DNA of 64,000 nt from Scenedesmus sp. ARA3. Lineage: Eukaryota; Chlorophyta; Chlorophyceae; Sphaeropleales; Scenedesmaceae. The stretch is from the NCBI GenBank assembly GCA_004335835.1, contig RWJK01001528.1, positions 1 to 64,000 of the forward strand, in the 5' to 3' direction. The notes below the pieces were generated by a model. The model was not told the origin of the DNA. It made no database searches and was given only the letters and a program-made list of their open reading frames with translations. How positions within the stretch are numbered: position 1 is the first letter of the stretch; every line of letters begins with the position of its first letter. The translations under genes and the position numbers were made by a program. Below, one piece after another: positions 1 through 42,001 of the stretch.

Positions 1-3000
1 CCGCGTAGGCGTGCTGCTGTCTGGCGGCCTGGACTCCTCTCTGGTGGCTGCCATCGCCAGCCGCGCGATCAAGTCAAGCGACAGCGTGTGGGGTAACAGG
101 CTGCACTCCTTCTGCGTGGGCCTGCCTGGCAGCCCTGACCTGAAGGCGGGCAGGGAGGTGGCAGACTTCCTGGGAACAGACCACCACGAGTTCACCTTCA
201 CGGTGCAGGTGTGTGTTCTGTGTGTACGATGGTTTCAATGTGATGCCTTGCTGGCCGGCCTAACTCGTTGCAGCAGGGCATTGACGCCATCAGCAGCGAC
301 ATCCAGCACATGGCAATCACTCGGTCACTGCCGCTCACTGCTTCACACATCACACCTTTGCTGCTCACTTTGATTGTCACTTGCAGGAGGGCATCGACGC
401 CATCAGCAATCTCAGTCAGCACATTGAGACCTACGACGTGACCACCATCCGCGCCAGCACACCATACGTCACTGCTTTTAACAACGTACTGCATGTGCTT
501 GTTTTGGTGGAGGGCATTGACGCCATCAACGACGTCATCCAGCACATTGAGACTTATGCGTCACAACAATCCGTGCACGCTCACACTAATTCCTCACTAC
601 CCGGTCACACTCATTTCTCACTTGCAGGAGGGCATCGACGCCATCAGTGACGTCATCCAGCACATTGAGACGTACGACGTCACAACAATCCGCGCCAGCA
701 CACCCATGTTCCTCATGAGCCGCAAGATCAAGGCGCTGGGAGTGAAGATGGTGCTGTCGGGAGAGGGCTCCGACGAGGTGTTTGGAGGCTACCTCTACTT
801 CCACAAGGCGCCAAACAGGGTGAGCATGTGTTTTGTGACATGTTATGTAACAACATATGTAACAGTGCTGCAAGTTGGTGTGAAGATGGTGCTGTCGGGA
901 GAGGGCAGTGATGAGGTGTTCGGAGGCTACCCGTACTTACAGATAGCGCCAAACAGGGTGCGCGTTGTACCTGTTGTTACCAAGTGTTATGATAGCATCA
1001 CACATGTTGGGCTCTGCTGTAGCGCTAGCTGGGCCTCAAGTAGTACTGAGCGGGGAGAACAGCGGTGTTTGGCGCCTTGTGGAAGTATAGGATGTCTCTC
1101 CAAGTGCCTTTGGAGGATACCTGTACTTCCACAAGGCGCCAAACAGGGTGAGCATAGGTTATGTAACACGTTATGTGACAGTTTGTCGTAACAGAGTGTA
1201 AGTGTGCTGTGAAGCTGGTGCTGAGCGGCAAGGGCAAACTACTTCGTCTTTACTCACTGACATGTTTCATTACATGTTCCCCACTACACTGTTGCAAAAA
1301 CGGTACGCAAGGTGCAGGCACTATCCTAATGCTGGTGTCTCGTGTCTGCACTCAATCATGTTTGGTACTCGTGCTGTTCGCCATTCGTCTCATTCCACTG
1401 CTTGCAGGAGGAGTTCTTCCAGGAGGCGGTGCGCAAGGTGCAGGCGCTGCAAGCTTTGACTGCCTTTGTCTGCACCCACTTACACTAATTCAACTGCTGC
1501 TTGTCTCACTGCATAGGCACCCTCAGGAGGAGTTCTTCCAGGAAACAGTATGCAAGATGCAGGCGCTTTGTGAGTTACTTGTGCCGGAGTTTCACTTGCT
1601 GACACTGTTCCACTGCATGCATTCCTGCAACTGCAGGAGGAGTTCTTTCAGGAGACTGTGCGCAAGGTGCAGGCGCTGTACCAGTTTGACTGCCCCAAAT
1701 CTGCGCCAACTGACGTATGTCTTCTGCTGTTTTTGCACCTTGCACCCACAGGAGGAGTTCTTTCAGGAGACTGTGCGCAAGGTGCAGGCGCTGTACCAGT
1801 TTGACTGCCCCAATCTGTGCCCACTGACGTATGACTTCTACTGTTTTTGTACCTTGCACCCACAGGAGGAGTTCTTCCAGGAGACGGTGCGCAAGGTGCA
1901 GGCGCTGTACCAGTTTGACTGCCTGCGCGCCAACAAGTCCACCATGGCGTGGGGCGTGGAGGCGCGCGTGCCCTTCCTGGACAGGCAGTTCCTCAACGTG
2001 GCCATGGCGATTGACCCGGCAGAGAAGATGATCAACAAGGCCGAGGGTGGGTTTGACTGTGGCTGCTGCTGCTGCTGCTTCTGTCCGGGTGTCTGTCTCC
2101 CAAGTGCGAGCTTGCTGTTTTGTTCTTTGTTGAGTGACCCTGCGGAGGACTTGGTTCACAAGGCAGAGGGTGGATTTGGAACCTGCTGTCGTTGCCTTGA
2201 GTGGTGCCGTGCGCTTCCTGGACAGGCAGTTCCTCAACGTGGCCATGGCCATTGACTCTGCGGAGAAGATGATCAACACGGCCGAAGATGAGCGCTGCTG
2301 CTACTTCCTCACCCTCTTCGTCGCTTTCAATGACTCTTTGCAGTATGAGTTTGCTGCTTAGCGTCTGGGCAGGCTGCCTGGGCAACACATCTTGCTCATT
2401 CAATCCCTTTTAGACCAACCGGGCAGCTGGACACACTGTGCGTCAATGGTAGCGGCAGTCACAAAACCACCGTTTATCTTGGTGTGCTCTTGGTGTGCAG
2501 GCCGCATGGAGAAGTACATCCTGCGCAAGGCCTTTGACACCCCGGAGAACCCCTACCTGCCCGCGCACGTGCTGTGGCGCCAGAAGGAGCAGTTCAGCGA
2601 CGGCGTGGGATACAGCTGGATCGACGGGCTCAAGGACCACGCCAACAACGTGGTCAGCGACCAGATGCTGGCGGCTGCGCAACACAGGTAAGCGAGCCGG
2701 TGGAAGTTGCAAAACCAACTCGTCACAGCTACTGTATCAACTTAGTTCTTTTCTGAAGCACATTCTTGTTGCACAGCTGTGGGTCTCCCTCCTTGTTGCG
2801 CCAGTGTTTTCGTCACACACAAGTGCCATCTGAACAATTCAACCTGAACGCTGCGCAGGTACCTGGACAACACCCCCCGCACCAAGGAGGCCTACTTCTA
2901 CCGCTCCATCTTCGAGAGCCACTTCCCGCAGAAGGCAGCAGCAGACACAGTGCCAGGTGCGGCCAGCGCTGATATGCAGCTGCAGTCCATTGTATATCCA

Positions 3001-3411
3001 GCCATGATGGTGTGTTTGCAGCAGTGCCTGATGTACCCCTGAAGTTCCGCATGTTTGTGCGCATTTGCAGTGTTTCAGGCCCTGAAGCAGCCCTTGCTGA
3101 ACTGGTGCTGGCAGCCAAAAGCTGTAAATGTATAGATGCACGGCTTTCCTGCTGCTGAGCATATGCTGCTGCCTTCTTCGCAAGTACGAGCTACATGTAT
3201 GTCAGCAACTGCTACAAATTTACATGAAATGTCACGCTGACGACCAAGGGTCTGTGTTGCTGCTGCTGCTGCTGCAGGCGGCCCCTCCGTGGCGTGCAGC
3301 ACAGCCACTGCAGCGCTGTGGGACGCAGCCTGGGCAGGCTGCGAGGACCCATCAGGCCGCGCAGTGGCGGGCGTGCACGACAGCGCGTATGAGAAGCCCG
3401 CAGCAAACTGA
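1..3411 (+). CDS. ASN1: Asparagine synthetase (glutamine-hydrolysing), synthetase domain, 5' partial
   Basis: Transfers the amide of glutamine to aspartate, using ATP, to make asparagine in the cytosol. Exons read as join(<1..208, 628..819, 1866..2046, 2501..2687, 2859..2956, 3278..3411); phase closes throughout and gives 332 residues plus a TGA stop. The window opens at the ATP-pyrophosphatase loop LLSGGLDSS; the N-terminal glutaminase domain lies upstream. Further family blocks are [62 protein letters not shown] and the C-terminal [12 protein letters not shown]. The length and C-terminus fit plant-type enzymes. Most introns hold partial copies of the adjacent exon, listed separately, so an automatic gene caller could mis-splice here. 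Family assignment is certain; use of exactly these exon copies is inferred from protein continuity. Confidence 0.95.
271..627 (+). repeat. Three upstream partial copies of asparagine synthetase exon 2
   Basis: Copies near 275-312, 384-465 and 508-573 repeat the start of the exon that begins at 628 ([16 protein letters not shown]), with a CAG acceptor or a close match. None reaches the exon's 3' half or its donor. Confidence 0.85.
860..1235 (+). repeat. Downstream partial copies of asparagine synthetase exon 2, one of them inverted
   Basis: Direct copies of the exon 3' end ([19 protein letters not shown] followed by GTG) occur near 879-960, 1115-1149 and, poorly preserved, 1208-1232. At 1068-1087 there is an inverted copy that pairs perfectly over 20 bp with 1124-1143. 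Confidence 0.8.
1403..1865 (+). repeat. Four upstream partial copies of asparagine synthetase exon 3
   Basis: Copies beginning near 1409, 1524, 1636 and 1750 each carry a CAG acceptor and about 50 nt encoding [12 protein letters not shown] before diverging. Spacing is about 112-116 nt. The complete exon is the fifth and last copy, at 1866. Confidence 0.9.
2130..2290 (+). repeat. Downstream partial copies of asparagine synthetase exon 3
   Basis: A short copy of the DPAE..-NKAEG end lies near 2137-2171. A longer copy of [20 protein letters not shown] lies near 2213-2285. Both repeat the 3' part of exon 1866-2046, and neither has its acceptor side. Confidence 0.8.
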
Positions 3412-3655
3412 ACTGCTGCTGATGCATGCAGCAGCAGGAGCAGCAGCAACTTGGTGCGTGTATGAGAAGCCCGCAGCAAACTGAACTGCTGCTGATGCAT
3501 GCAGCAGCAGGAGCAGCAGCCGCAGCAGCAACTTGGTGCGCGTACGAGAAGCGCGCCGCCAACTGAGCTGCTGCTGATGTTTTGGAGCAGCAGCAGCTCG
3601 ATGTGCGTACGAAAAGCCTGCAGCAAACTAAGCTGCCACTGATGCAGCAGCAGCT
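3385..3655 (+). repeat. Tandem repeat over the asparagine synthetase stop codon
   Basis: Four degenerate units of about 68-80 nt (starting near 3387, 3459, 3539 and 3607) repeat the last codons YEKPAAN, the TGA and the following CAG-rich 3' UTR. The later units are untranslated. Confidence 0.8.
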
Positions 3656-4578: not shown

Positions 4579-4587
4579 AGCACAGGA

Positions 4588-4994: not shown

Positions 4995-7900
4995 ATGTCA
5001 GCAATGAGGTTGGCTAGTGCGATGCGAGGCCAGTGTGCTTTGCAGCAGCGACAGAGCACTGGTCGCCTGCTAGCCACACGGCCAACTGTCCGGAGAATAC
5101 CATGCAGATATGTGCAGGTGTCCTCAAACACTGAAGTGAGTTTGATTGCACGGCAGCATTGTGCCATCCACGTGCTGAGCAATTGTATGCAAACCGCTGC
5201 TGCAGCTGTAGCTGCCTGCTGTCAGCAGCGGCAGGTTGCACTGTACACCTCCTGCATACTGTATGCAGCAACACTCCAGGCCATTTATGTGTAGCACGCG
5301 TGAGCGATGAATCGCTGCTGTTGTTCTTGCAGGAGCGTGAATCCAGCACAACCAGCACCACTCAGCAAGCACAGCAGCCCCAGCAACAGCCGCAGCCTGA
5401 GAGTCCAGCAGCGCAGCAGGATGTTGCTACAGCTGCTGCCAAGTTTGTGGCTGAAGCCGTTGCATCCCCAATTTTCTATCTCATAGCAGGTGGGTGATTG
5501 CACCGGCTCCTTTAAGCACGACCTTGACGGCATGCAGCGCACTTGCTTGTCTGAAAACATCTGCGCTAGTGCTACGCCATCTAGCAACTGACTGAAAACA
5601 GCACTGCACTGTGACCTGTCTGCAAATGTCGCCTGTGTGTTCTGGTTGCTGCTGTTCCTCAGCAACAGCCGCGCCGCTGCAGAAAGGGACAACTGTCAGC
5701 CGCACACCTGCCCTACACCTGCTCAACACAAGAGTCGCACAGGCTGTCCAAACATACAAACGCATTAGCCACATGTTTAGGGCCACTGACAAACAACGTT
5801 GTGACAAGAATTGTGTTCATTCCGAATATGTTGTACTATGCTGTGTTTCAACACACATGTGTGGTCTTGTGTCTAAACGCACCCTGCTGACCATCAAGCC
5901 CGTGTCCAGCACAGAAGAGCTAAACACAGAGCCATTGACGGTTCACGCGGCTTCACACAACTTATCTGTTGTTGACATAGAAATTGCATCAGTTGCATGC
6001 AAGCAGGCTATTGAAGCATTCAAAGGATTTGAATGTGTTGTGTGTATCCCCCTTCCTCTTTATGTGTGCAGGCCTGCTGACCATCAAGCTGGTGTCCAGC
6101 ACAGGCGAGCAGGCCTCAGGCATCTTGATAGCAGCAGCAGCGCCTGTCACGCTGCTGACAGCACTTTCTAAGAGCAGCCTGGGCAAGCAGGTGCAGCAGG
6201 GGCTTGAAGAGAAGCTGCCGCAGCTGGAGGCAGAGGCGGCAGCGCTGAAGCAGCAGCACGCAGGTGGGTGCAGCATGGTTATTTTAGCATGATGGGAGCA
6301 GCGGCACGCAGGTTGGTAACGTGTATCGTAGTATGTTAAGACGGGGCTCCACCCAAAAAAATTGCAGAAGGAAACCAAGTATAGAACAGTCAGTTCAAGG
6401 CTTGCGTTGTGCAGCAGCAGCAGCATTAGGGCAGCCTGGGCAGGCAGGTGCAGCAGCGGCTTGAAGAGAAGTTGCCACAGCTGGAGGCAGAGGCGGCAGC
6501 GCCGAAGCAGCAGCATGCAGGTGGGTGCAGCATGGTTATTTTAGCATGATGGGAGCAGCCGCATGTAGGTTGGTAATGTGTATCGTAGTATTTTGAGAGG
6601 GGGCTCCACCCACAAAAACCCAGAAGGAAACCAAGTATAGAACACTCAGTTCAAGGCTTGCGTTGTGCAGCAGCAGCAGCATAGGGCAGCCTGGGCAAGC
6701 AGGTGCAGCAGGGGCTTGAAGAGAAGCTGCCACAGCTGAAGGCAGAGGCGGCAGCACTTAAGCAGCAGCATGCAGGTCCGTGCAGCATGTTTGAAACAGC
6801 AGCACGCAGCTGGTAAGAGTGAGTTGTACATGGCGCCGTTAGCCATTTACTGGGTGGCAGTCCAACATGTGGTGCGTGCGCGACATGTTTGACCAGGTGC
6901 GCGACATGTTTGACCAGTTTTGACCTGAACTATGCTGCTGCTGCTGTTGCTGCTGCACACGTGCAGAGGCGCGCAGCCGCAGCCGCTGGTACGGCCCGCA
7001 GCGCCCGCAGCTGCCGGCAGCGCTTGGTGGCTGCCAGGCGCACCTGAGCGGAGCAGTTGCTGGCGACTATGGTTTTGACCCGCTGGGCCTGTCACAGCAG
7101 CAGGAGGCGTTTGACAAGTACTTTGAAGCGGAGCTGTTGCATGCGCGGTGAGTGATGCTCTTGAACAAAATGTGCAATACAGAGCGTGCTGGGCAGCTTC
7201 GAGTGTGCACCGCAGTAGCAGCACAAGACAGTTCAAACTATCTGTTAAAGAGTCTGTCTTGCTCCCTATCTCCCTGCTTCTTTGCTTCTTTGCAGCTGTG
7301 GGCTGCCTCATGCCTGAGGCGCTCAACCTGGGTTCTTTCCTACCCTTCGTGCTGCACGTCACCTTACCGTGTTCTCTTGCTGCTGAATCTCAGCTTTTCC
7401 TTTTTGCATGTGGCAGCTGCGCCATGCTGGCTGCTGTGAGTTGCCTGATCCCTGAGGCACTCAGCCTCGCTTGTGTCTCTGCCTTGCCTATGACACCTCA
7501 TCCCATCAATTCCCCTGCTGATTCTATGCAACTTGCAGCTGGGCCATGCTGGCTGCTGTGGGCTGCCTCATCCCTGAGGCGCTCAGCCTGGGTGGTGGTC
7601 TCTTCCCTACTTGCTGCATATCTCCACACCCTGTGCGCGATGCTTGGTTTAGCTGTACTGACCTCTTTGCGCTGTGCTGTATTTCAATCCATCATGCTTC
7701 TCCTTTTTTGCTTTTGACAGCTGGGCCATGCTGGCTGCTGTCGGCTGCCTCATCCCTGAGGCGCTCAGCCTGGCTGGGGTGGAGCTGGGGGAGCCGGTGT
7801 GGTGGAAGGTCGGTGCTGCCAAGCTGCAGGGCGGCGTGACACTCAACTATGCGGGCATTGAAGGCTTTAGGATAGCAGGTGGGTTAGGTGGAAGCACTTG

Positions 7901-9052
7901 TTAGGGCTTTAGGCAAGCAGATGGGCGGCTGGCTGGGTACATTGCGGGATGTTGTAGGTGAAGCCAGCATGCAGGCATTGAGGGCTTCAAGACATCATAC
8001 ATGTGGCTGAGGGGCTGGGGGGGCTCAATGGCTGGAGTGGAGCTGGGGGAGCCTGTGTGGTGGAAGGTGGGCGCTGCCAAGCTGCAGGGAGGCGTGACGC
8101 TCAACTACGCAGGCATTGAGGGCTTCAGGATAGCAGGTGGGTCAGGTGGAAGCACTAGTCGGGGCTTTGGGATAGCAGATGGGCGGCTGGCAGGGTACAT
8201 TGCGGGATGTTGTAGGACAAGCTAGCACGCAGGCATTGAGGGCTTCAAGACATCAGATATGTGGCTGGGGGGCTGGGGGCCTGGATGGCTGGAGTGGAGC
8301 TGGGGGAGCCTGTGTGGTGGAAGGTGGGCGCTGCCAAGCTGCAGGGCGGCGTGACACTCAACTACGCAGGCATTGAGGGGTTCAGGATAGCAGGTGGGTG
8401 GCTGGGAGCGTTATTCTGGGCTATAAGATGGCATGTGTGTTGCTGGGTGGCTGGGTGGGGCAAACAATTTAGGCAAGCTGCAGGGCGGCGTGGCGTCAAC
8501 TGTGCAAAAGTCCAGGGCTGTAGAGTTTGGGTTGCTGGCTGGGTGGGTGGGGTGTGTGAGTTACACAACCTAGGCAAGCTGCAGGAGGCCAAGCTGCAGG
8601 GAGGCGTGACGCTCAACTACGCAGGCATCGAGGGCTTCAGGATAGCAGGTGGGTTGCCGCGTGGCTGTGTTGAGCGGGTTACGCGCTGTTGTAGGGCAGC
8701 CAGCACATGCTGTGCATGTCAGTGCCTGCTCTCTGTGAGCCCTTAGGCGTCAAGGACTTCAGCATAGCACATGGCTGGCTGGCTGGCTGGATGGATGGAT
8801 GGCTGGTGGTGTGGGTTGCGTGCAGTTGTATAACGCCCCAGCTGGCAGCTGTGCATGTATGAATGTATGTGCTTGACTCCTTTGGGCCTTTCATGGGTGG
8901 TGGGTGGAAGAGATGTTGAAGAGCATGCAAGTGCGTTGCTGTGCATCCATGTGTGTGCCCTGTTTTGGGCCTTTTAGTGGTGCTGGCCATGGATGGGCTA
9001 TCAAAGGTGCCTGCCGGGATTTTTGTAAACCTGTCTGTGCTGGTTCCCGTGC

Positions 9053-9105
<53 letters not shown>

Positions 9106-10367
9106 GGGTGTGCAGGCAAGCAGGGCATTGGCATCATTGCAGCATGCCAGGCAGTGCTGATGGGAGGGCCGGAGTACGCACGGTGAGCTGAAAACCCGAC
9201 AAAACCCCAAACATGGCTGGTCAACAGCAGAGCTGCAGAGCTCTACAGCTGGAAGACGCAGCTATAGCTTTAGTCAGAAGCTGCAGATGGTGAAGGCCGG
9301 GAGATGTGTGGTGTGTAGCAGCGTCAGTATGCGCCGGCAAGGCTGACTGCAGCATCATGCATGCAGGGCTGCTGCAGCCTCCTTTGTAGCTGGCAGCTGA
9401 CTAAGAAGCTGAACACCTGCTTACTGCTGGCTGGTGTTTGCTGCTGCTGCTGCTGCCACCTGCTACTCCTGCCTCCTTGCAGGCAAGTTGGCATCAAGAG
9501 TTTGGAGCCCGTGGGAGTGTTCCTACCAGGTGTGCAACTTACTGTGAAATACTGTTTTGATGCGCTGTGCGTCACTGGCCAATTGCTGGATGTTGTTGTC
9601 CACTGGCAAGCACTGTCCGAGCACACTTGATAGCTAATGCACGATTGGAAGCTGCAGCTTCAAGCCCATTGCTTACATGTATGTAAACTCTCTTTTAACA
9701 GTAGTATGTCTTGTACGGTGCGTACTGCACACGCACCACCATGTGCTCTGACTGTTGCTTACGGCTTGCTGTGAAGCGGTGAACTGCTCCTCCTGACTGT
9801 CCGCCTGCTGCTACGTTGTTACTTTTTGATAATGATCACCTGCAGGGGACCAGAGCTACCCTGGCGGCGCGCCCTTCGACCCACTGGGGTTCAGCAGCCC
9901 AATGGCATAGTTGACCAGGGGTCAATATCAGTCAAACATGCCCAGCAGACCAAAGCTAACCAGCCTGGAATAACTCAAGCATATGCCTGGTGCCGAGCTC
10001 CTGCACTTTCCTGCAGGAGACTAGCCTAGTCATCTTCCCGGCAGACTAACGCTTGGCTGGCTATGCAGCAGTCTTCTGCTGTTCTTACTGTGTGTTTCGT
10101 GCTGTTTGTTATCCTGCAGGGGACCAGAACTACCCCGGCGGCGCGCCGTTTGACCCTCTGGGGTTCAGCAGCAAGCCCGACGAGTTTGTTGACCAGGCGG
10201 TCAAAGAGGTCAAAAACGGGCGGCTGGCAATGCTGGCTATGGCTGGTTACTTTGCGCAGGCGGCAGTTACGCGGCAGGGCCCGCTGCAGAACTTGATTGA
10301 CTTTGCAGCTGACCCGGTGCATAACAATGTCTTTGGATATATCACAGGCAACGATGTGTCCCGTTGA
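4995..10367 (+). CDS. LHCB7: Lhcb7-like chlorophyll a/b-binding protein
   Basis: Exons join(4995..5135, 5333..5489, 6072..6263, 6967..7147, 7721..7878, 9116..9182, 9483..9529, 10120..10367) close in phase and give 396 residues. The first ~45 residues look like a chloroplast transit peptide. A Gln-rich stretch and an extra hydrophobic segment ([16 protein letters not shown], then [16 protein letters not shown]) follow. The LHC fold comes next: [10 protein letters not shown], helix [14 protein letters not shown] with its Glu/His/Arg ligands, GEPVWWKVG, middle helix [12 protein letters not shown], the loop [18 protein letters not shown], and helix [19 protein letters not shown]. The GPEYAR and PGDxNYPGG blocks are those I recall for Lhcb7, the rare antenna protein, rather than CP26 or CP29. 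It should bind chlorophyll and carotenoid in thylakoids. Several exons have partial duplicates, so exon choice at 7721 is the least certain. Confidence 0.88.
5878..5920 (+). repeat. Upstream partial copy of Lhcb7 exon 3
   Basis: The sequence near 5882-5918 repeats the start of exon 6072-6263 (LLTIK.VSST) and then diverges. Confidence 0.75.
6360..6780 (+). repeat. Two downstream partial copies of Lhcb7 exon 3
   Basis: Copies at about 6428-6519 and 6688-6776 repeat the exon 3' half ([16 protein letters not shown], then AL/PKQQHAG with GTGGGT or GTCCGT after it). They lie in a roughly 260-nt unit that also repeats the flanking intron sequence. Confidence 0.85.
7290..7720 (+). repeat. Three upstream partial copies of Lhcb7 exon 5
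   Basis: Copies starting near 7292, 7418 and 7538 carry an acceptor-like CAG and encode parts of [17 protein letters not shown]. They precede the complete exon at 7721 with a period near 120-180 nt. Confidence 0.9.
8025..8655 (+). repeat. Three downstream partial copies of Lhcb7 exon 5
   Basis: Copies at about 8030-8134, 8289-8393 and 8588-8649 repeat [20 protein letters not shown] through [12 protein letters not shown], or only its end. Each finishes at the same donor, GCAG|GTGGGT. The protein sequence is nearly unchanged. Confidence 0.9.
8769..8812 (+). repeat. (GGCT)n/(GGAT)n microsatellite
   Basis: Tetranucleotide run in the long intron of the Lhcb7 gene, next to further GGCT-rich sequence. 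Confidence 0.85.
9843..9945 (+). repeat. Truncated upstream copy of the Lhcb7 last exon
   Basis: An acceptor CAG followed by [18 protein letters not shown] copies the start of exon 10120-10367. It then reads PMA and an in-frame TAG at about 9908. If spliced in, it would end the protein before helix A. Confidence 0.85.
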
Positions 10368-11341
10368 CAGCCGCGGAGGTGTTTACTGTACTTGTCTATG
10401 ATGGCGCATCATTGGCACAGCTGTGCCTCGATGAGCCATTTATCGAGCCTTGAGACGCTTGCTGGCTGTTGTGTAGCATGTAGGCTGTGCCACACGGTGA
10501 CTGTTGGTGTTGGAAAATTTGCAGCTGCAGGTTTGGCAAGGCGCTGGCAGCACACGCGGTGCTCCACAGTTTGTGCATGTTCAAGTCACGCGCTCTTGGA
10601 ACCGGTGTTGCTGCGTTCAATCCTTGCTGTTTGCAGCTGTTTGTCGCTTGCTTTGTTGCATTGTTGCAGTTTGGTGCCACTCTATCGGACTTCAGCATCA
10701 TGCACAGCGGCGTGCTGCTGAAACTTGGTGCAACTTGCAGCAACTTGAAGTTTGTTGCGCAGCATGCTGCAGCAGTGCTGCTCCTGCTGAGAGCCTGGGG
10801 CCGGTCACATTGTGTAACCAGCAGGGCAAGCTGTAACCCAATGCCTACATAGAGTGTATTGGCTGCATAGATTTGGGAACCGGCATGCCTGCGCCAACTT
10901 CAACGCATGCCACAAGTTCACTGCATGAAGTTTCCCTGTTACACGCTTGCGCCAGCAGCTGCAGCAGCCTGTTCAGTGCTGCAAGACAAACACCAATGTA
11001 ATGTCTAATTGTTGGTGCAGTTCATCGTGCTGACAGCACTGAATCCTGTGTCCACGCAGGTAACATGAAGTGGTTTCGTAAGACTCAACGTAACAACAGC
11101 ATGGCTGTGTTGCAAGGCACAATATGCCGTCATAGCAACGTTTCGTAAGCCTGGTTGATGCACACTGGTTGCTCCTGCTTTGCTGCCTTCCGTTGACACC
11201 AGCCTGCTTGCAGTGACCATTTGTCATCGACTGAGCCTTGCTGAAGCCACAGCTGAACAGGAGGCTCACAATCAAAAGTTATAAACAGGATCTGGGCCAT
11301 AAGGCAGCCTTTCCTTGATAGTCTACCAGATCACTTGCACC
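10368..11341 (+). other. Lhcb7 3' UTR and SDHB upstream region
   Basis: No convincing coding sequence. TGTAA motifs at 10813-10817 and 10832-10836 are candidate polyadenylation signals for Lhcb7, about 450-470 nt past its stop. The rest would hold the SDHB promoter. Confidence 0.5.
11278..11287 (+). promoter_or_regulatory. TATA-like element upstream of SDHB
   Basis: GTTATAAAC lies about 55-64 nt before the SDHB ATG. That would imply a short 5' UTR of roughly 30 nt. The site is defined by sequence match only. Confidence 0.3.
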
Positions 11342-14187
11342 ATGCTTACGGCAGCAGTGCCACAGCTGCTGCGGGCAGCTCAGGTGCTGCCTCAAGCTCT
11401 TTCGGCAGTATCATTCTTGCATACAACGTCGGAGGTGTCTCAGCCAGTGGCAAAGGCAGCAGAGGCGAAACCAGCTCTCTTCAAGGTATGCAGACTTACC
11501 TGCTGTTGCCGAGCACGGCTTGTGTATTGTATACGTATTCGTTTGGTTGGTTGATCAGAGTGTCGCGCGCAGCAGAGCGTCGTATGGCGGTTGCTGATGG
11601 GGCAACAGCCAGCAGCAGTGTCGGGACCACTGGTCCGGGAACCACTACTGCTCCATGCATTGTGTATGGCAAAACCGTTGACTGCATGTTGTTGACGCTC
11701 TCCATATGCTTTGCTATATATTCAACGCTGGTAGCAGCTGGTGTTCTTCTATGATGAGGCTGGCCCTGTTTTTGCACTGACCACAGTAGCCAGCAAGCTG
11801 CTGCAGGAAACCCCTGCAGCAGTGCAGCAGCACATGCAGCGTCTGGTTGTAGGACATAACACCCAGCATAGGATGAGAGCAGCTAGCTGCAGCAGCAACG
11901 CATGAGAAGCAGCAGCTGCAGCAGCAACAGAGCACTGGCCTCGCACCAGCTGTAGGCTGGGCATGCAGACAGGGCAGCATGCTTCCACAAAGACACACAC
12001 AGCACCACCTGCAGCAGCTCTTACTGTGCACATGCATGGTCTGTCTGTTTCAAGTGCGCAGCAGCCTACAGCTGTGTGTCTCTCTGAGCGGCTACTGCAC
12101 ACACACGGCATTTTCAGCAATCGTCTTTTCAAATGCTTGGCCTGCACGCATGCAAGTCTTCTCCGTGTATTGCTTGTTGCTCTCCCCCACATAATTTGCA
12201 CTGCCATACACACTGTTTCTCTGTAGGAGTTTTAGTGTATTGCTGGAACACGGACGCTCAGTTTGTAAAACACATCTCGACACAAGGTTTTCACTCCACA
12301 TGTGTGCTTTGGGGACTGCTGTCTGTGCTTGCAGGAGTGTCCAGGTGTACTGCTGGAACCACGATGCGCCCGAGGCCCTCAATACCATTAGCAGCCCTCT
12401 ATGTCACAGATATGCCCCTGTTACTCCTCTGTTACTTCACACTGTGCAGGAGTTCCAGGTGTACCGCTGGAACCCTGATGCACCAGAGGCGCCAAAGTAC
12501 GTGTCCTACAAGGTTGACATCAACGCCTGCGGGCCCATGATGCTGGACGTGCTGCTCAAGATCAAAGACGAGCAGGACCAGACGCTGGCACTCAGGAGGT
12601 CCTGCAGGTGCGCGTGGTTTCGTCCTGGCAACAGCAGCTGATGTAGAGAACTCGTATCTGTTTCGTAGCAGCTGTCGACCTGTAGCAGCGCAGCACACCC
12701 AGCGCAGCAGCACGTGGTGTCGTGTGTGTGCACATTTACGCATGGCTGTGGGCCCATGATGCTGGACGTGCTGCTGAAGATCGAAGATGAGCAGGACCAG
12801 ACGCTGGCGCTGCGGCGCTCCTGCAGGTGCGCATGGCTGTTCCTGTGGCAGCAGCTGCCTGTGTGGGGCCAGGGCAGGGGCATTTGTGGCTCCCGCACCG
12901 TCTTCAAACCCGTTTGGTCTTACAACACATGCCTTTCCACCCCACATGCGCGCAGGGAGGGCTTCTGCGGCTCGTGTGCCATGGACCTCACCCGCCACAC
13001 ACAACCTGGCTCGTTCATTACATGACAGAACATCACCTGTAACATCACCTGTAACATCACCTGTCACATCGCATGCATGCAGGAAGGCATCTGCGGCACC
13101 TGCGCCATGAGCATCAACGGCCGCACACAAACGTTTGCGTGTAACATGACGTGAAACAGGTTATCCAGCTTGCATATTATCGCAGGGAGGGCATCTGTGG
13201 CTCCTGTGCCATGAACATCCACGGCAGTACACAACGTGCTAACTCATTGCTTGATATTATAGATGACAAGACTTGTAACACATGTAATTGCAGGGAGGGC
13301 ATCTGCGGCTCCTGTGCCATGAACATCGACGGCCAGGACAACCTGGCCTGCTTCAGGCGGCCATGCAAAACCTGCTTCTGTATTTACATCAAATGTTTGT
13401 TCACCTTGTGTGCCTGCAGGGAGGGCATCTGTGGCTCCTGTGCCATGAACATTGATGGCCAGAACAACCTGGCCTGCCTGAGCAAGGTCAACAGGGACCC
13501 GGCCAAGGCCAGCCGCGTGGCGCCGCTGCCGCACATGTTTGTGGTGAAGGACCTGGTTGTGGACATGAGCAACTTTTACAGCCAGTACAAGAGCATCAAG
13601 CCCTACCTGCAGAAGAAGGGCAGGTGGGCTGCAGGGTTTAGGGTTTTGGGTCAAGTTGCTGGGGTTTTAGCAGTGTTAGGGGTTTGGGCTGCAGGGGTGT
13701 TTGTTTGTGGTCAAGGACCTGGTTGTGGACATGAGCAACTTCTACAGCCAGTACAAGAGCATCAAGCCCTACCTGCAGAAGAAGGGCAGGTGAGGCTGCA
13801 GGGTTTAGGGTTTATTGGGCTTTGCAGGGTTTAGGCAGGGTTTTGGGCTGCAGGGGTGTTAGTTTGTGGTGAAGGACCTGGTTGTGGACATGAGCAACTT
13901 CTACAGCCAGTACAAGTCCATCAAGCCCTACCTGCAGAAGAAGGGCAGGTGGGCTACATGGTTCAGGGTTCTGGGTATCCTTGCCAGGGAATAGCAAAGA
14001 GGGTTACATTTGCTTGCATCACTCTTTGCACTTTCAACACCCTGCAACTTGTGGCATCTCCTTTGCAGTTACCTGCAGCTATGGTCCCACTGCATTGGAA
14101 GAGGAGATTCGAGTCCAGGGACAGCCTCTTGCAAAACTCTCTCAAACTGTTTGTCAGCCAATGCTCCTGTCCACGTATTGGTGGTGG

Positions 14188-14235
<48 letters not shown>

Positions 14236-14344
14236 AGTTCCGACCCCAACGCGCCCAAGAAGGAGATCTTCCAGTCCAAGGACAGCCGCTTGCATCATTC
14301 TTTCAGCATACTGCATGCAACATAACCTCCTGCCAACATAAGTG

Positions 14345-14383
<39 letters not shown>

Positions 14384-14492
14384 AGTTCCGACCCCAACGC
14401 TCCCAAGGAGGAGGTCTTCCAGTCCAAGGACAGCCGCCTGCATCATTCTTTCAGCATACTGCATGCAACATAACCTCCTGCCAACATAAGTG

Positions 14493-14540
<48 letters not shown>

Positions 14541-14649
14541 AGTTTCGACCCCAACGCGCCCAAGAAGGAGATCTTCCAGTCCAAGGACAGCCGCTTGCAT
14601 CATTCTTTCAGCGTACTGCATGCAACATAACCTCCTGCCAACATAAGTG

Positions 14650-14685
<36 letters not shown>

Positions 14686-15585
14686 CGCAGCTCCGACCCC
14701 AACGCTCCCAAGAAGGAGATCTTCCAGTCCAAGGACAGCCGCGCCAAGCTGGACGGGCTGTACGAGTGCATCCTGTGCGCCTGCTGCTCCACAAGCTGCC
14801 CCAGCTACTGGTGGAACCAGGACAAGTACCTGGGCCCCGCGGTGCTGCTGCAGGCCTACAGGTGCGAGGGTTTAGGGTTTGAGCTGCGGTGTAGGGTTCG
14901 AGGGTTTGGCTGTGGTGTTTAGGGTGCAGCTGCCCCAGCTACTGGTGGAACCAGGACAAGTACCTCGGCCCTGCAGTGCTGCTGCAGGCCTACAGGTGCG
15001 CTGCTTTCTGTTTCAACCGTTTGTTTATTGCCTGGTACAACCACCACATGCACCAAGGCAAGTACCTGGGGCCCGTAGTGCTGCTGCCAGGCCCACAGGT
15101 GTGTCTCTTGCGGCATCTATGTCTCCTTCACAATAGCTCCTGTTGAGTTTCAACTGCACCAGCTTCCAGACACTGCCATGTCAGGTAGGCGGTTGGCACT
15201 TAGTATTACCCGTATGCATGCATGGCTGCTTCCTCTGCTGATGCTGCTGTTTGTGCTGCTGCTACTGCTGCTGCTGATGCTGATGCTGGCCAGGTGGGTG
15301 ATTGACAGCCGTGACGACTTCACTGCTGAGCGGCTGGCACACCTGGACGACGCCTACAAGCTGTACCGCTGCAAGGTGAGCCGACAGGGGCTGCTGACAA
15401 GGAGATGAATATTATATCATGTTTAATGAATAGTTGTATGTATTATATATAATATATATGAATATTGTCATCAGTGGTTGAGTCACATCATTTTCCTGAC
15501 GAGGTGTCACGTGCAAGTAGCATGCCAGCAGTCCTGTGCTGGGCCGCATATGTTTTTTTCAGCAGTTGTCGGTTTTGACTTTCTC

Positions 15586-15630: not shown

Positions 15631-15744
15631 CCATCATCATCACAGACCATCATGAACTGCAGCCAGACCTGCCCCAAGGGCCTCAACCCGGGCAAGGCCA
15701 TCGCAAAGATCAAGCAGAGCCTGCACAAGGGCTCTCCGGTGTAA
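11342..15744 (+). CDS. SDHB: Succinate dehydrogenase iron-sulphur subunit (complex II)
   Basis: Carries electrons from the FAD subunit to ubiquinone in the mitochondrial inner membrane. Exons join(11342..11485, 12450..12607, 13420..13623, 14691..14861, 15294..15375, 15646..15744) give 285 residues, close to other SDHB proteins. The first ~40 residues form a basic mitochondrial presequence. The ferredoxin-like domain has [17 protein letters not shown] and the [2Fe-2S] ligands in [16 protein letters not shown]. The C-terminal domain has the [4Fe-4S] motif [17 protein letters not shown] and the [3Fe-4S] motif [16 protein letters not shown]. All cluster cysteines are present. A spurious upstream frame extends the first exon, but ATG 11342 gives the normal presequence. 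Every coding intron carries exon fragments. Confidence 0.96.
12226..12449 (+). repeat. Two upstream partial copies of SDHB exon 2
   Basis: Near 12226-12262 and 12334-12390 the start of exon 12450 ([14 protein letters not shown]) is repeated with an acceptor-like AG and substitutions such as [12 protein letters not shown]. Confidence 0.85.
12744..12832 (+). repeat. Downstream copy of SDHB exon 2
   Basis: Repeats [20 protein letters not shown] through RRSC and ends at the donor CAG|GTGCGC. It differs from the real exon by one Lys-to-Glu codon and a few silent changes. Confidence 0.9.
12952..13419 (+). repeat. Four upstream partial copies of SDHB exon 3
   Basis: Copies beginning near 12955, 13081, 13185 and 13293 each repeat the acceptor and the [2Fe-2S] ligand segment [11 protein letters not shown], then diverge. 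The substitutions [10 protein letters not shown] and [10 protein letters not shown] keep both cysteines. The complete exon is the fifth copy. Confidence 0.9.
13700..13950 (+). repeat. Two downstream partial copies of SDHB exon 3
   Basis: Copies at about 13708-13789 and 13868-13947 repeat [17 protein letters not shown] through LQKKG and end at GGGCAG|GTGAGG or GTGGGC. The intron between them also repeats, with a TTTAGGGTTT-like motif. Confidence 0.9.
14080..14690 (+). repeat. Array of upstream copies of SDHB exon 4 with (CTG)n tracts
   Basis: A degenerate copy lies near 14085. Three good copies begin near 14236, 14385 and 14541, with the true exon at 14691. The unit of about 150 nt is (CTG)n, CAG, the segment [17 protein letters not shown], then a conserved intron stretch ending TAAGTGTG. 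The CTG tract differs in length between units. Confidence 0.92.
14925..15110 (+). repeat. Two downstream partial copies of SDHB exon 4
   Basis: Near 14930-14997 and 15033-15100 the exon end [20 protein letters not shown] is repeated, first nearly exactly and then with substitutions. Each is followed by GGTG. Confidence 0.85.
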
Positions 15745-15754
15745 ACTGGCAGCT

Positions 15755-15764
15755 TGCGACTGCT

Positions 15765-15796
<32 letters not shown>

Positions 15797-15908
15797 GTTT
15801 TGACAAGGCCATTGCAAAGATCAAGCAGAGCCTGCACAAGGGCTCCCCGGTGTAACTGGGTTTTGATTCATCCAGGGATGCAGCGCAGCTGCCTCGCACA
15901 GGCCGGCC

Positions 15909-18001: not shown

Positions 18002-18048
<47 letters not shown>

Positions 18049-25714: not shown

Positions 25715-31014
<5,300 letters not shown>

Positions 31015-35988: not shown

Positions 35989-38594
35989 GCAGCTGCATCG
36001 AGGGCTGCAACTTTGTGTGCAAGTTGCTGCACAGCTTACTGTTACTGGGGCCGCTGCTGACGCCGCACTGCTGCTGCTGCCGCAGGTTCATCGAGGGCGC
36101 CTTTGTGCGCCAGCCGATGCACAGCTTACTGCCTTGCTAAGCATTACTGCTCCTGCTCCTGCTGCTGCTGCTGCTGCCGCAGCTTCATCGAGGGCTGCAA
36201 CTTTGTGCGGCAGCCGCTGGGTGTGCGCAAGGGCTGGGAGCTGTCCAAGGTCATGGCCAGCCCTTTCATTGAGGCAATGCCTGCAGAGGACAAGAACATC
36301 CAGCTTGGAACGTTCTGTGGGGCGGGCTCCTTTGGGCGCGTGTACAAGGCCAGGTGGGCACCTGTGGTTTGCTGTCTTGAACTGTGGCTGTCTGGCTATC
36401 TGTCTGTCTGGCTGGCTATCTGGCTTGATGAGTGGCTGGATAGTTGAGTGATATGGCTGGTTTTGTGAGGCTTGTGTGCCAGGGCATGGCCAGCCCCTTC
36501 AATCATTGAGGCCAGCCCCTTGATTGAGGCCATGCCCGCTGAAGACAAAAACATCCAGCTGGGCACCTTCTGTGGGGCCGGCTCCTTTGGGCGCGTGTAC
36601 AAGGCCAGGTGGGTGTGATATGCTTTCTTGCTGGCTGTCTGTCTGTCTGGCTTTCTGTGTGTCTGTTTGTCTGTCGGCCTGCCTGACTGGCTGGATTGTT
36701 GGGTAAATAGGGGAGTGTTTTGTGGCTGGTTTTGTTTGGCTGGGAGCTGTCCAAGGTCATGGCCAGCTCCTTGATTGGGGCCATGCCTGCAGAGGACAAG
36801 AACATCCAGCTGGGCTCCTTCGGGCGCGTGTGCAAGGCCAGGTGGGCCGATGGCGCTATTGCTCTGTCTTATGGCAACTTGGGGATGAAGCCTAGGCGGA
36901 CATGGGGCGGCCATCCTGTGGCATGTGCTTCTGCATATACTCCTGTTTGTTACTGCTGCATGTGCTGCCCATGCTGCTGGTTGTGCGCACTCCTGTTGGT
37001 ACTGCTGCTCCTGCTGCTGAGCTGGTCCTGCTGCTGCTGCTGCTGCAGGTGGGGTGGGCGTGACGTGGCAGTCAAGGTCATCGAGCACAACGCCGACGCC
37101 AGCAGCGCTGTTGAGAGTGAGTGGCGATGCCCCGCGTGCCTTGGTCCATTGCTGCTGCTGCTGCTGCTGCTGCGTGTGTGTGCAGACCTGTTGTCATGTA
37201 AGCCTGGTTAGACTTGCTGCACAAGCAATATATCAAAGTTGCCAAAGAACCTTGGGCCTGCCACTCTCAGCTCCGTGGGCCTCATCAGCTTTTACGCTAT
37301 CCCGCTTGCATGCATTCCCATGCAATCCTCTTAACACCATCTAACATGTGTTACGTGAGTGCTGCTTTGCAGGTGAGGTGGAGCTCATGTTCAAGTTCAG
37401 CAACCACCCCAACATCGTCCGCGCATTTTACGCAATCACCTACACGCAAAACAGCCTACCCTCAGTCTCCCTTGGCGCCAACACCGGCACCAACGGCAGC
37501 ACCAGCAGCAATACCATCCCCAGGGACCAGTTGTCTCAGTCCTGCAACATCACTGCTGTCAACAGCAGCGGTGGCAGCAGCAGCAACAGGCTTGGCGTGA
37601 TCAGCAGCAGCAGCGGGCAGCGGCTATCGCTGGCAAAGCTGCGTGCCATGCCGCTGCAGGAGGTTCTGGTGGAAGGGGAAGGAGGGGATAGCCCAGTTGG
37701 TCAGGCAGCAGTTGAGGCGTTTTGCGCTACTGCTGCTGGCAATGCAGCAGCAGGGGTGTGCACGCCAGAGCAACCATGGCAGGTCGGCAACATCAGCAGC
37801 AGGCACCGGCCACTGGAGCGGATCGACAGCGATCCAGAGCAGCAGCAGCAGCAGCAGCAGCAAAGTCGAGCCGCGTACCAGCAAGCAGGGCTTGCAAAGC
37901 CGACTAGCCCCTTTGCAGGTGCCAGTGCTGCTGCTGCTGACTCAGCGTCAGACAGGGTAGAGCGCAGCGCCGGGGGTTTGACTGGGTCAAACCTCGGGTC
38001 AAACCTTGGGGTCCGGGGTTCTGATCTGGGGTCGACTGACAGCGTCAGCAGGGTATACAGCTGGATGGGCGATGGCGTTGGCAATGGCAATGGCAATGGC
38101 AACGGCAATGGCAATGGCAAAAGGGCTGCTGATGCAGTGGAGGTCATGCCGGCTCGGGAGAAGCGCGCAGAGACGTGGCTTGTGCAGGTCTGTGATGACA
38201 TACGCTGTGTGCGCTGTGCCTGTATCTGCTGGTGTCCGTTATTTTGCGAGGTGTGATATGTTGTAGCCGTGCGTCAGCAAGCGTTTGACAAGTAGCGGTG
38301 TTGCTGCATGTCACCCAGCTAGTTGCACGGCCAGCAAGGTCCTTGCCGGTGCTGCTGTTGCTGCTGTTACTACTTGCAACATCTGCAGCGTGCAGGCATC
38401 ATGTGGTGCTGCTTCTGCTGCTGCTGTTCAGTAGCTTGGAAGCATCACAGCAGCTTGTAGGAGGTGAGGATTGCATGCTGTCCTTGAAAACTGCCTCTGC
38501 TTTTGCTGCTGCTGCCTGCAGGAGTACTGCGATGTGGGCACACTGGGCAGTGTGGCTGCCAATTGGTTGGTAGGCAAGTGCAGATCACATGACC

Positions 38595-38626
<32 letters not shown>

Positions 38627-41600
38627 TACAGGAATACTGCGATGTGGGCACACTGGGCAGTGTGGCCGCGGAGTGGAAGCCTGCGGAGGAGAGTGACGAG
38701 CGCATGCTGGAGCGGCTGCTGCTGCTGAAGGATGCGGCACAGGGCATGAAGCTGCTGCACTCGATGAACACCGTGCATGGAGACCTGGTGGGTGCATGTT
38801 ATATTCCGTCTATTGTAACATTCTTCATGTTCAAAAACATGAAGGCTGGTGTTGAGTATCGTTGTGATTAGCCAAGGGAGAGGCATGCTGCTGATGCTGC
38901 ATGCGTAGCAGCTCTTGCACGTAGCCCAGCAAGTTTTACAGTGCATCCCCTATGCATTTTTACAGTGCATCCCAGATGCTCCGCATGCGCTGTGTTGTGC
39001 ATATGGCGTACCTCTTAGCGGCTCACTCTTGGCGCAGCAGTGCGCTTTCAGTTACAGCAGCTGGCTGCAGCCTGAACTCCGGCTCAAAGACTGCGCATGT
39101 GCGTCGTAGCCCGGGTGCAGTGTGCTAATGTGCATCAGCGTGCTTGTTCCCTAGTGTCCACACTCAAAATCCATGATAATGATACAAATGATACAAACTG
39201 TTTGCCTCCTTTCATCTCTGCTGCAGACGGCGCGCAACGTGCTGGTGTGCAGCAGCCCGGAGGCGCAGTTTGGCTTGGTCGCAAAGCTGGCTGACCTGGG
39301 GTGAGGGCCTGCTGTGACTTTGGTGCACTGCTTGCATGTTTATGAGGCCTAGCAACGCAACCGTGTTGTGTTGGTGTCGTGCATACAGATGCATCAGTCT
39401 GCCAGCGGCATTAGAATCGGTTGCGCCTGCTCCTCTTTACGTGTGCCAAGGAGTGATTAATCCTGCTGCCTAGTTTGCAGCACATACTGCTGACATACAC
39501 TGTGTTTGGTGCTGCTGCCGCAGGCTGTCGCGTGTGATCAAGCTGCACCGCACACACAGGACCACCAACACAGGTATGGCTGACAGCGCAGCTGCGCTGC
39601 CATAGGAACATTTGCAGGAACAGCTGTGCTCGTGCAGGAAGCAATGTTGAGGCCCTAAGGCTCTACTGGCTTTACTTTGCTTTGACATGCTTATGTAATC
39701 AGAAGCGTTGTGTAGCAGGGCTGAATCAACGGATACTTAGGCACATGCACATGCCGGTCCGTGCGCTGACCCTTCTATTCGTGGCCGCTGGTTTCCCTGC
39801 TGCTTGCTGTTTCCTGTCTGCAGTGGGCACACTAAGTCACATGCCTCCAGAGGTAAGGACAGGCTGCACCGTTGCATGCGTCAGATGCTGTCAGCAAACA
39901 CTGGTGCTACACTGGTGCCGAGATGGGTCGAGGCAAATGTTCCTTTCAGTAGCATGCAGCATTGACCAGTGAGGTTTTGCTTGCGTTGTGCGATGGTTAG
40001 AACACGTGCTCGTATGCATGCCAGGTTCACCTGTGCACTCACTGCGCCATCACCTCCTGGTACTGACTAGACTGTGTGTTTCTATCTGCTCAATGCCTCT
40101 GCTGGTTCATCCTGCAGCTGCTGCGCTACGGCCACTGCAGCACCGCTGTCGACATCTACGCTTTTGGAGTGATGAGTGAGTGCCTGCCTCCATCTCTGCA
40201 CCGCTTTTGCACACAAAGCCAGCCGTACATGGTCCTGAATTGCTATGTTGCACAGGTTGTGCATGGGCTTGCTGCCCTGACTATATTGCTTGAACTGCCG
40301 TAGACTGGCCAAGATCTTTAGCCCTGGCATGTTTGGTGGTGATTGATGACACAGGTAGCAACTCCTGACCATGCTGCTGCTGCTGCTGCTGCAGTGTGGG
40401 AGCTGTACACCAACAAGGCGGCCTTCAACAAGCTGCAGTACGGCCAGGTGAGCTGCGGCAGGCGACTTGCACATAATCATTCAGGCACCAGCACCAGCAG
40501 CAGCAACGGCTGCAGCAGTAGCAGCGGCTCGCTCCGGCTGTGCTCATCTGACCCCTTGAGGGCTCCTGCTATACTTGCCAAAGCAAACCAGCCGTTGATA
40601 CAGTATCAACACAACGCTTGAATATGAGTTGCATGCTGGATATCAAATGAACACACCCTGTGCACTGTTGGAGCGTGCGCATCTGTGCACATCCATCTCT
40701 TTCCCTGGCCCTGTTGCTTATCACCGGTTGCGTGTGCAGTTCTACGAGCACGTGGTGCTGCGCAACCTGCGGCCGCTGCTGCCAGTGGGCATGCCTGCCG
40801 ACTACTCGCTGCTCATGCAGCACTGCTGGGCCAGCGACCCCGCCTCACGCCCCAACGTGGACAGGTGCGCACAGTCTAGTCGCCTTATGCTCCCTGTTTA
40901 GTGCTGTTGTGACCCTGCATTTGTCCTCCATTAGTCCTGTGCAGCAGCTGCTCATGCAGCACTGCTGGGCCAGCGACCCAGCTTCACGCCCCAACATGGA
41001 CAGGTGCGTGCAAAGCATCCAGGATGAAGTGGGCATGTGATGTGCAACAGCTGACTTGCGCGCCCCAACGTTGACTGGTGTGTGTTTTAGGCTAGTCAAA
41101 AACCGGCTGGCTGACAGTGTGACCATACTGTTATTCACAAGCTTGCTTGATATCAACACGTCTTTGCTTATTTTGTGTTGCTGACACTGTCAGATGCTAT
41201 TACTGTTACTTTGCAGGGTGCTGCACTGCCTGGGGCTCATGATAGCTGAGCGCCAGGAGCGCCTGGACGAGCCCACAATGGCCAGCCACATTTTTTGCTG
41301 ATCTTGTGTTATTTTCTGTTGTTTCATTGTTTCTTTTGCAGGGTGCTGCACTGCCTGGGGCTCATGATAGCTGAGCGCCAGGAGCGCCTGGACGAGTCCA
41401 CATTGGCCAGCCACATTTTTTGCTGATCTTGTGTTATTTTCTGTTGTTTCCTTGTTTCTTTTGCAGGGTGTTGCACTGCCTGGGGCTCATGATAGCTGAG
41501 CGCCAGGAGCGCCTGGACGAGTCCACAGTGGCAAGCCGCGTACAGTCAGCCCCGCTGCCGCAGCTGCAGCTGCCCCCAAGCTTCCGCCTCCCACACGGCG

Positions 41601-42001
41601 CAGCACCCACGCCAGCAACAGCAGCAGCAGCAGCCGCATACCACATGAGCATGTTTGCGGTGAAACCGGATGGCACGGTGCGGCATGCAAGCTGTCCCGG
41701 CCCTAGCAGCAGCAGGGGGCCGTTCCGCGGCTCTGCGGCTGCTGCAGCAGCAGCAGCCGTCGCGGCGGCAGCAGCAGCAGCGCGCGGGTACAATGACGGT
41801 TATAACGATGATGATGACGAGGATGACGAGATGCGGCCGGCGTGGAAGGAGCCGTCGGTGCGGTTTTCTAGCGTGTCGTGGGGCGACCGCAGCAGCATTG
41901 TGTGCACAACGCCGTCTGTGCCGCTGCGGCCGCTGCGGAAATACTCCAATGAAGACTATGGCACTGGCAATGTCTCACAGGAAGAGACCTGGTTTGTGTG
42001 A
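33298..42001 (+). CDS. Receptor-like protein kinase (TKL-type), single membrane span
   Basis: Exons join(33298..33584, 33916..34243, 34640..34741, 35072..35252, 35490..35721, 36183..36353, 37049..37116, 37373..38187, 38632..38787, 39227..39300, 39524..39573, 39824..39852, 40118..40175, 40395..40447, 40740..40864, 41467..42001) close in phase: 1087 residues. An N-terminal hydrophobic signal precedes an extracellular part with a beta-helix feel (NVTITGAQGLD, NCSVTFQNITVANERHG) and Cys pairs. The span is AGAVAGAVVAGVVAITAILAG, followed by WSRRRR as stop-transfer. The kinase has GAGSFGRVYKA, DVAVKVIEH (Lys), hinge VQEYCDVGTL, catalytic loop HGDLTARNVLV, ADLG in place of DFG, SHMPPE, and VDIYAFGVMMWELYT. 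About 240 low-complexity residues are inserted before the hinge. The tail is Ala- and Asp-rich. Ligand and substrate are unknown. Confidence 0.9.
35812..35862 (+). repeat. Downstream copy of receptor kinase exon 5 end
   Basis: Repeats the end of exon 35490-35721 (VDVEALRMYDR, here VDVKALQMCDR). Confidence 0.8.
35984..36125 (+). repeat. Two upstream copies of receptor kinase exon 6
   Basis: Near 35990-36023 and 36085-36120 the acceptor and the start FIEGCNFVRQP are repeated after CTG-rich sequence. The complete exon starts at 36183. Confidence 0.88.
36480..36845 (+). repeat. Two downstream copies of the P-loop exon of the kinase
   Basis: Copies at about 36505-36608 and 36740-36841 repeat the 3' part of exon 36183-36353, including EDKNIQLGTFCGAGSFGRVY and the donor GGCCAG|GTGGG. 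The second copy has lost CGAG from the glycine loop. If used, they would give variant ATP-binding loops. Confidence 0.9.
38078..38122 (+). repeat. (GGCAAT)n coding microsatellite
   Basis: Encodes alternating Gly-Asn inside the kinase insert. Confidence 0.9.
38515..38577 (+). repeat. Upstream partial copy of the kinase hinge exon
   Basis: Acceptor plus EYCDVGTLGSVAA repeated before the complete exon at 38632. It then diverges. Confidence 0.88.
40946..41010 (+). repeat. Downstream copy of kinase exon 15 end
   Basis: Repeats LLMQHCWASDPASRPNMDR with the donor ACAG|GTGCGT. The original is 40740-40864. Confidence 0.9.
41209..41466 (+). repeat. Two 125-bp tandem copies that form alternative terminal exons
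   Basis: Units at 41217 and 41342 repeat the TTTGCAG acceptor and VLHCLGLMIAERQERLDE of the last exon at 41467. They then read an in-frame stop (MASHIFC or LASHIFC then TGA, at 41299-41301 and 41424-41426). Confidence 0.9.

Follow-up and report, generated by a model that had tools for sequence, protein, structure and literature searches.

Sixty-two distinct partial copies of exons lie next to their source exons in five algal genes, at 28 exon ends, and every one of them is on the side that tandem duplication across the edge of the exon dictates: the 30 upstream copies, at 13 exon ends, derive from the 5' part of the exon, the 32 downstream copies, at 15 exon ends, derive from its 3' part, and no wrong-side copy was detected by self-alignment in these genes. 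The junction rule that had been proposed in an earlier note on this DNA thus describes all 62 copies, in modelled genes of both strands. The explanation that we consider best, and to which we assign roughly even confidence, is serial tandem duplication combined with continuing exchange between the copies and the exon, the exchange probably taking place among diverged alleles.

Gene models and the source genome

The window, that is, the whole stretch of DNA analyzed here, consists of positions 1-64000 of a 94,676-bp contig from an assembly of 87.3 Mb in 1,567 contigs. Five gene models with a total of 40 exons and 35 introns were built by hand on the basis of reading, frame, splice sites and homologues: AsnS, LHC, SDHB (succinate dehydrogenase iron-sulfur subunit), PBGS (porphobilinogen synthase; nine exons on the minus strand) and a kinase. 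The AsnS model is partial, being truncated at the window edge, and the kinase model is without its first exons. Open frames and GT/AG introns are common to all five models, and these two features are the basis of the model for AsnS, which we take to be asparagine synthetase, and for the kinase, which presumably belongs to the family suggested by its motif. The other evidence comes from protein alignments: the alignment of SDHB to a solved homologue starts at residue 39 and contains no gap longer than 2 residues, and that of PBGS starts at residue 51 and contains a single 7-residue gap, which lies inside an exon. The PBGS protein is identical to Tetradesmus obliquus OEZ86_004116 in 383 of 383 residues and the LHC-like protein differs from T. 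obliquus OEZ85_002140 in 2 of 387 aligned residues, which, at the level of protein sequence, makes T. obliquus or a very close relative the very probable source of this genome.

Geometry of the exon-end copies

Copies were identified by self-alignment with simple repeats masked, followed by realignment, for the flanks of the 40 exons (Table 1). Upstream copies begin at or near exon position 1 and include the acceptor; downstream copies finish at or near the last exon base and include the donor. A few shortened copies stop short of the exact exon edge (for example, positions 14-53 and 100-132 of 158 in LHC exon 5, and 44-83 of 191 in PBGS exon 6) yet sit on the expected side. The exon-derived part of the copies spans about 25-108 bp, and none of the 62 copies in the modelled genes covers an entire exon together with its two splice sites. 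An intact splice dinucleotide is retained by 54 copies, and one of the remaining eight is a stop-codon copy. As a control for chance, three dinucleotide shuffles of the window yielded 0, 0 and 0 local direct pairs, compared to 136 in the real sequence. All nine examples of partial exon copies that had been given in the earlier note hold on self-alignment, with the boundaries listed in Table 1.

Table 1. Exons with copies of their ends in the window. Up and down refer to the direction of transcription; "noted earlier" marks the arrays given as examples in the earlier note, here with the boundaries found on self-alignment.
Exon	Position	Strand	Upstream copies	Downstream copies	Remarks
AsnS exon 2 of model	628..819	+	3 within 275-596	877-957, 1109-1147	
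AsnS exon 3	1866..2046	+	4 within 1408-1809	2208-2285	up noted earlier
AsnS CDS end with stop codon and 3' UTR copies	3383..3654	+			outside the count of 62
LHC exon 3	6072..6263	+	5883-5920	6428-6520, 6683-6775	unit about 257 bp
LHC exon 5	7721..7878	+	3 within 7292-7595	4 within 8029-8648	up and down noted earlier
LHC exon 8	10120..10367	+	9846-9925		
SDHB exon 2	12450..12607	+	12335-12376	12746-12826	
SDHB exon 3	13420..13623	+	3 counted within 12956-13351	13702-13789, 13862-13948	up and down (13702-13948) noted earlier
SDHB exon 4	14691..14861	+	3 within 14239-14594	14928-14995, 15052-15098	up: unit about 150 bp with CTG runs
SDHB last exon with stop codon	15646..15744	+		15804-15855	copy in 3' UTR
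PBGS exon 3	30367..30603	-		30220-30257	
PBGS exon 4	29960..30064	-		4 within 29492-29867	
PBGS exon 5	29153..29309	-		29035-29076	
PBGS exon 6	28182..28372	-	3 within 28446-28761		up noted earlier
PBGS exon 7	27824..27936	-		2 within 27566-27749	
PBGS exon 8	26881..27015	-	3 within 27088-27343	6 within 26130-26809	down noted earlier
Kinase first modelled exon (presumed family)	36183..36353	+	2 within 35993-36119	2 within 36510-36841	down noted earlier
Kinase exon	38632..38787	+	38522-38559		
Kinase exon	40740..40864	+		40947-41003	
Kinase last exon	41467..42001	+	2 within 41217-41412		up noted earlier; unit 125 bp

Several arrays run head to tail as tandem units. The downstream copies of PBGS exon 8 are nearly equally spaced, with starts 71, 205, 322, 448, 570 and 712 bp away, and the spacing is irregular in some other arrays, such as those downstream of LHC exon 5 and upstream of SDHB exon 3. 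Over all loci examined, in the window and beyond, repeat offsets peak at 100-160 bp. Offsets between exon and copy are often not multiples of three, and the possibility that downstream donors are used in frame was dropped on this ground; at the inner edges of the copies, inspection by eye revealed no consistent partner splice site.

Ends of coding sequences that carry stop codons are likewise copied into the 3' UTR (SDHB, 15693-15859; AsnS, 3383-3654), the SDHB copy being included among the 62 and that of AsnS left out. Therefore the relevant boundary is that between coding and non-coding sequence, and the pattern is not splice-specific. Tandem duplication across a splice junction, as suggested previously, is supported by the geometry and by the head-to-tail arrays, and has to be widened to include stop codons. 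When a tandem duplication crosses an acceptor, it is the downstream copy that stays joined to the exon, and when it crosses a donor, the upstream copy. Given that duplication across the boundary and the preservation of an intact mRNA together force the sides, the observed sidedness must result from any tandem duplication across a coding/non-coding edge, and no separate rule is involved.

Contribution of the copies to intron length

The lengths of the 35 introns, which contain 59 of the 62 copies, fit 287 + 134 x copies (in bp; n=35, slope standard error 14, r = 0.855). The 15 introns without recognised copies have a median length of 250 bp (90-439), and the 20 introns with copies a median of 672 bp (302-1237). 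Intron length rises with copy number, in agreement with the earlier proposal that introns grow by accretion, and exon-end duplication represents a concrete, countable source of intron lengthening. The mean intron length reported for T. obliquus UTEX393 is 462 bp, compared to 230 bp in Raphidocelis, 302 bp in Monoraphidium and 284 bp in Chromochloris, which also belong to the Sphaeropleales, and 270 bp in Chlamydomonas (PMC5966456); exon-end copies may account for the longer introns of T. obliquus.

Among the 152 local direct pairs in the window, 87 fall within the five genes and the other 65 touch unmodelled DNA. The within-gene pairs comprise 62 exon-copy pairs, 19 copy-copy pairs and six pairs between a recognised copy and other intron sequence, the last group probably involving weaker copies; none of the 87 pairs within the five genes is an intron-only pair without copied exon sequence, a count subject to the detection bias that pairs with a conserved exon remain recognisable longer. 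The duplicated parts of LHC and PBGS fall in conserved protein stretches, so that older copies derived from less conserved exons may have escaped recognition; in LHC, 15 of 127 residues in the duplicated parts and 61 of 264 in the rest are changed relative to Scenedesmus sp. NREL 46B-D3.

Exon-end copies elsewhere in the assembly

The sides of exon copies were tabulated outside the window, as had been proposed in the earlier note, for exons of the Pfam chaperonin family PF00118, which was picked irrespective of repeats; 30 of the 59 listed matches, located on eight other contigs, were used. Nearby copies were present for 20 of the 30 queries, and side and part were as expected in 49 of 55 copies. 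Three of these queries are copies themselves; when they are left out, 17 of 27 queries have copies and 44 of 45 copies conform to the expectation, the single exception being a truncated downstream copy. Three 'whole' copies in the chaperonin set all trace back to the same query, which is one of these copies.

In addition, 25 unannotated stretches of the assembly were sampled, two of them adjoining the window on the same contig and the others chosen by contig number. Irrespective of side, local direct pairs occupy 11.2% of these 238 kb and are present in 21 of the 25 stretches; altogether there are 271 near and 71 far direct pairs and 3 inverted ones. One stretch (positions 5001-15000 of its contig) has about 41% of its 10 kb in local direct repeats, with 87 near and 56 far pairs, and this array may be of a different, satellite-like kind. 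Searches of the 87-Mb assembly, which yield lower bounds, found no second site for one AsnS stretch or for single PBGS and LHC exons.

Coding-like divergence of the copies

Across the 62 copies, mismatches with the exon number 54, 32 and 186 at codon positions 1, 2 and 3, respectively, and comprise 178 synonymous and 94 nonsynonymous differences. With expected sites weighted 3:1 for transitions, the omega-like ratio is 0.193 (0.133-0.272 in a bootstrap over exon ends that used average site fractions), and 0.152 (0.080-0.239) for the nearest copies only. Where all copies agree against the exon, the bias is extreme, with 23 synonymous and 2 nonsynonymous changes. Thus, intron DNA here differs from its source as coding sequence does. 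An annotation-free measure, three-base periodicity of the mismatches, lends modest support: at least 65% of the mismatches fall in one phase in 34 of 120 gap-free pairs, compared to an expectation of 13.1 pairs and a maximum of 23 in 500 draws; by set, for which separate nulls were not drawn, the counts are 11 of 29 in the window, 19 of 74 in the sampled stretches and 4 of 17 at the chaperonin loci.

These differences bear directly on the scenario in which tandem duplication produces harmless copies that then simply decay neutrally. This scenario accommodates the geometry and the tandem arrays but appears rather improbable as a full account. A dead copy beside a conserved exon should show an omega-like ratio of at least 0.5, in contrast to the value observed in the 62 copies and, still more, in the nearest ones; the chaperonin copies, with 133 synonymous and 97 nonsynonymous changes once the queries that are copies are left out (188 and 118 before), give about 0.27 by the same site ratio. 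In favor of neutral decay are indels within the exon part of 12 of the 62 copies, several of them of 1 bp, a new stop codon in one copy, and the weaker bias of the changes private to one copy, of which 40 are synonymous and 59 nonsynonymous. The predominance of synonymous differences, the small number of copies with indels and the mostly intact splice dinucleotides do not agree with the earlier picture of the copies as invisible, degenerate leftovers; if splicing worked by intron definition, the real acceptor would face competition from upstream copies whose acceptors are intact. That first interpretation is right on tandem duplication and accretion and incomplete in regarding the copies as inert. 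Given the coding-like divergence, the common assumption that exon copies in introns decay freely becomes directly testable. Such copies may also mislead gene finders.

The intron parts of the units differ from the exon parts in a manner that is likewise unfavorable to neutral decay. The exon parts of the copies are 80-98% identical to the exon, whereas the 60-bp flank, compared unmasked, falls below z = 4 in 33 of the 62 copies (z of 4 or more in 29), similarity often ending at the splice consensus. When intron segments between neighbouring units are compared, 10 of the 27 exon-copy pairs and 4 of the 34 copy-copy pairs exceed z = 6, the remaining segments having mostly weak positive z; where segments do align, exon-copy divergence is 0.099 in the intron, 0.189 at S sites and 0.015 at N sites. 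Given that the exon parts are alike while the intron parts are mostly unaligned, something must keep only the exon-derived parts together. Missing flank homology does not by itself indicate that exon sequence alone was copied, as masked triplet runs explain some of the cases (SDHB exon 4, PBGS exon 6).

Another conceivable explanation is direct selection on the copies, which might serve as alternative coding segments or regulate splicing in a way that depends on coding-like sequence. The synonymous bias, the retention of the splice dinucleotide and the near-equal GC3 of copies and exons (0.849 and 0.859) all fit this possibility; however, with a single splice site per copy, no consistent partner site at the inner edges, indels in the same 12 copies and offsets that are frequently out of frame, we consider it unlikely.

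The synonymous distance is homogeneous across the 28 nearest copies (0.197; chi2 22.2, df 27) and unrelated to flank similarity, and the nonsynonymous distance of these copies is overdispersed (chi2 56.3). When the copies are ranked by their distance from the exon, N per site amounts to 0.040, 0.038 and 0.084 on the upstream side and to 0.022, 0.032 and 0.019 on the downstream side, so that ageing with distance is visible only in the third and further upstream copies. The constant synonymous distance of about 0.2 is what would be expected if copies and exons came from two or more diverged genomes, in a hybrid or a highly diverse population with recombination between alleles, and contigs of alternate haplotypes are reported for a related Scenedesmus strain, which is likely diploid (PMC7955037). 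However, S between copies is 0.17 in 30 unaligned pairs and 0.106 in 4 aligned pairs, against 0.19 between copy and exon; given that divergence among the copies is almost as large as their divergence from the exon, two genomes are insufficient. Moreover, tandem units require duplication in place, and we regard this origin of the copies as doubtful, to about the same degree as direct selection. Stitching of pieces from another haplotype or strain into one contig during assembly is very unlikely: it would fit the synonymous-type differences, the many unit sizes close to short-read length, the 148 N in the window, the irregular spacing of some arrays and the lack of a downstream ageing trend, but near-equal unit lengths recur within several arrays and differ between arrays, and the AsnS stretch and the single PBGS and LHC exons, within the bounds given above, have no second match in the assembly.

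Proposed duplication followed by exchange with the exon

Under serial tandem duplication with continuing exchange, segments of about 100-260 bp spanning a coding-block edge (an acceptor, a donor or a stop codon) are duplicated in head-to-tail fashion. Whichever copy stays attached to the remainder of the exon is kept as exon, and the other turns into intron or UTR, so that each copy adds about 134 bp to the intron; the geometry and the length relation show this much. Following duplication, the intron portion of the unit would drift, and the exon-derived part would be spared from free decay through homogenization with the exon. Gene conversion or unequal exchange would bring this about, probably acting on the matching part only. 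The synonymous excess might then arise from allelic differences among lineages in the exchanging exons and copies, with selection cleaning the exon.

The allelic component is included because exchange alone fails to yield the observed bias: when simulated within one lineage, with six rate settings and two tract lengths, it produced omega of 0.51-0.83 and never 0.19. Exchange alone is therefore not enough, and as a full explanation the one-lineage version was rejected. If alleles mixed in a diverse or a hybrid population, synonymous differences would increase and the constant distance would be accommodated; vegetative cells of T. obliquus have been judged haploid (PMC5966456), which we count against it. 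The four-gamete test found an incompatible pair in 2 of 10 arrays, with only 0-3 informative sites per array. The irregular spacing of some arrays and the confinement of ageing to the outer upstream copies also speak against the proposed scenario. GC3 reaches 0.851 in the duplicated exon parts, compared to 0.774 elsewhere in these exons and 0.719 in exons that lack copies, and in each of the five genes it is higher in the copied parts than at all other sites, barely so in AsnS (0.871 vs 0.862); this elevation would fit GC-biased conversion and may instead reflect which exons duplicate.

More tentatively, introns could be living reservoirs of exon ends that engage in two-way exchange with the exons, each duplication lengthening the intron. 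If so, intron DNA would be tested by protein selection and would return synonymous, rarely amino-acid, variation to the exons. Intron growth across the genome would then be coupled to exon evolution, which could explain why the introns of T. obliquus are long compared to those of related algae.

Comparison with known systems

Literature searches, which covered listings and left most subscription journals outside their coverage, found no published description of exon-end copying into introns. In the AGGT model of intron gain by exonic tandem duplication, the 5' end of the intron equals the start of the downstream exon and its 3' end equals the end of the upstream exon. That process likewise involves tandem duplication of exon sequence and splice signals, but none of the 62 algal copies is on that opposite side and it is existing introns that are lengthened. 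Tandem exon duplication, including mutually exclusive exons, also places exon sequence in the neighbouring intron, whereas the algal copies are partial, with one splice site and no whole exon among the 62. Concerted evolution by gene conversion keeps duplicate genes and pseudogenes alike where homology persists; in this alga, if it operates at all, it does so within one gene, on exon ends of the small size given above. Introner elements, which are dispersed in genomes, resemble the algal copies in that intron sequence is multiplied within a genome, but the AsnS array stretch and the two tested exons with copies match their own locus only. Minisatellites and intronic tandem repeats are similarly local, head to tail and variable in copy number; in contrast, the local pairs in the modelled genes all involve exon sequence or exon copies.

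Other repeats in the window

A 26-bp minisatellite with perfect copies is broken by a run of N at 19029-19336 and is possibly an unresolved longer array. CAG/CTG triplet runs are very common among the 126 tandem-repeat rows, and some lie in duplicated units (for example, 14188-14685 and 28385-28587). More local direct repeats, perhaps of the same kind as the exon-end copies, are found in unmodelled DNA at 17919-18492 and 21654-24297. Two neighbouring similar blocks about 3.5 kb apart at 55185-61677, with about 69-94% identity in pieces, are probably a tandem gene duplication, and additional short repeats of the local kind lie at 57848-58606. Two inverted repeats, at 16435-16511 (77 bp) and 1066-1145 (80 bp), are possible hairpins; apart from these, the window has few inverted repeats.
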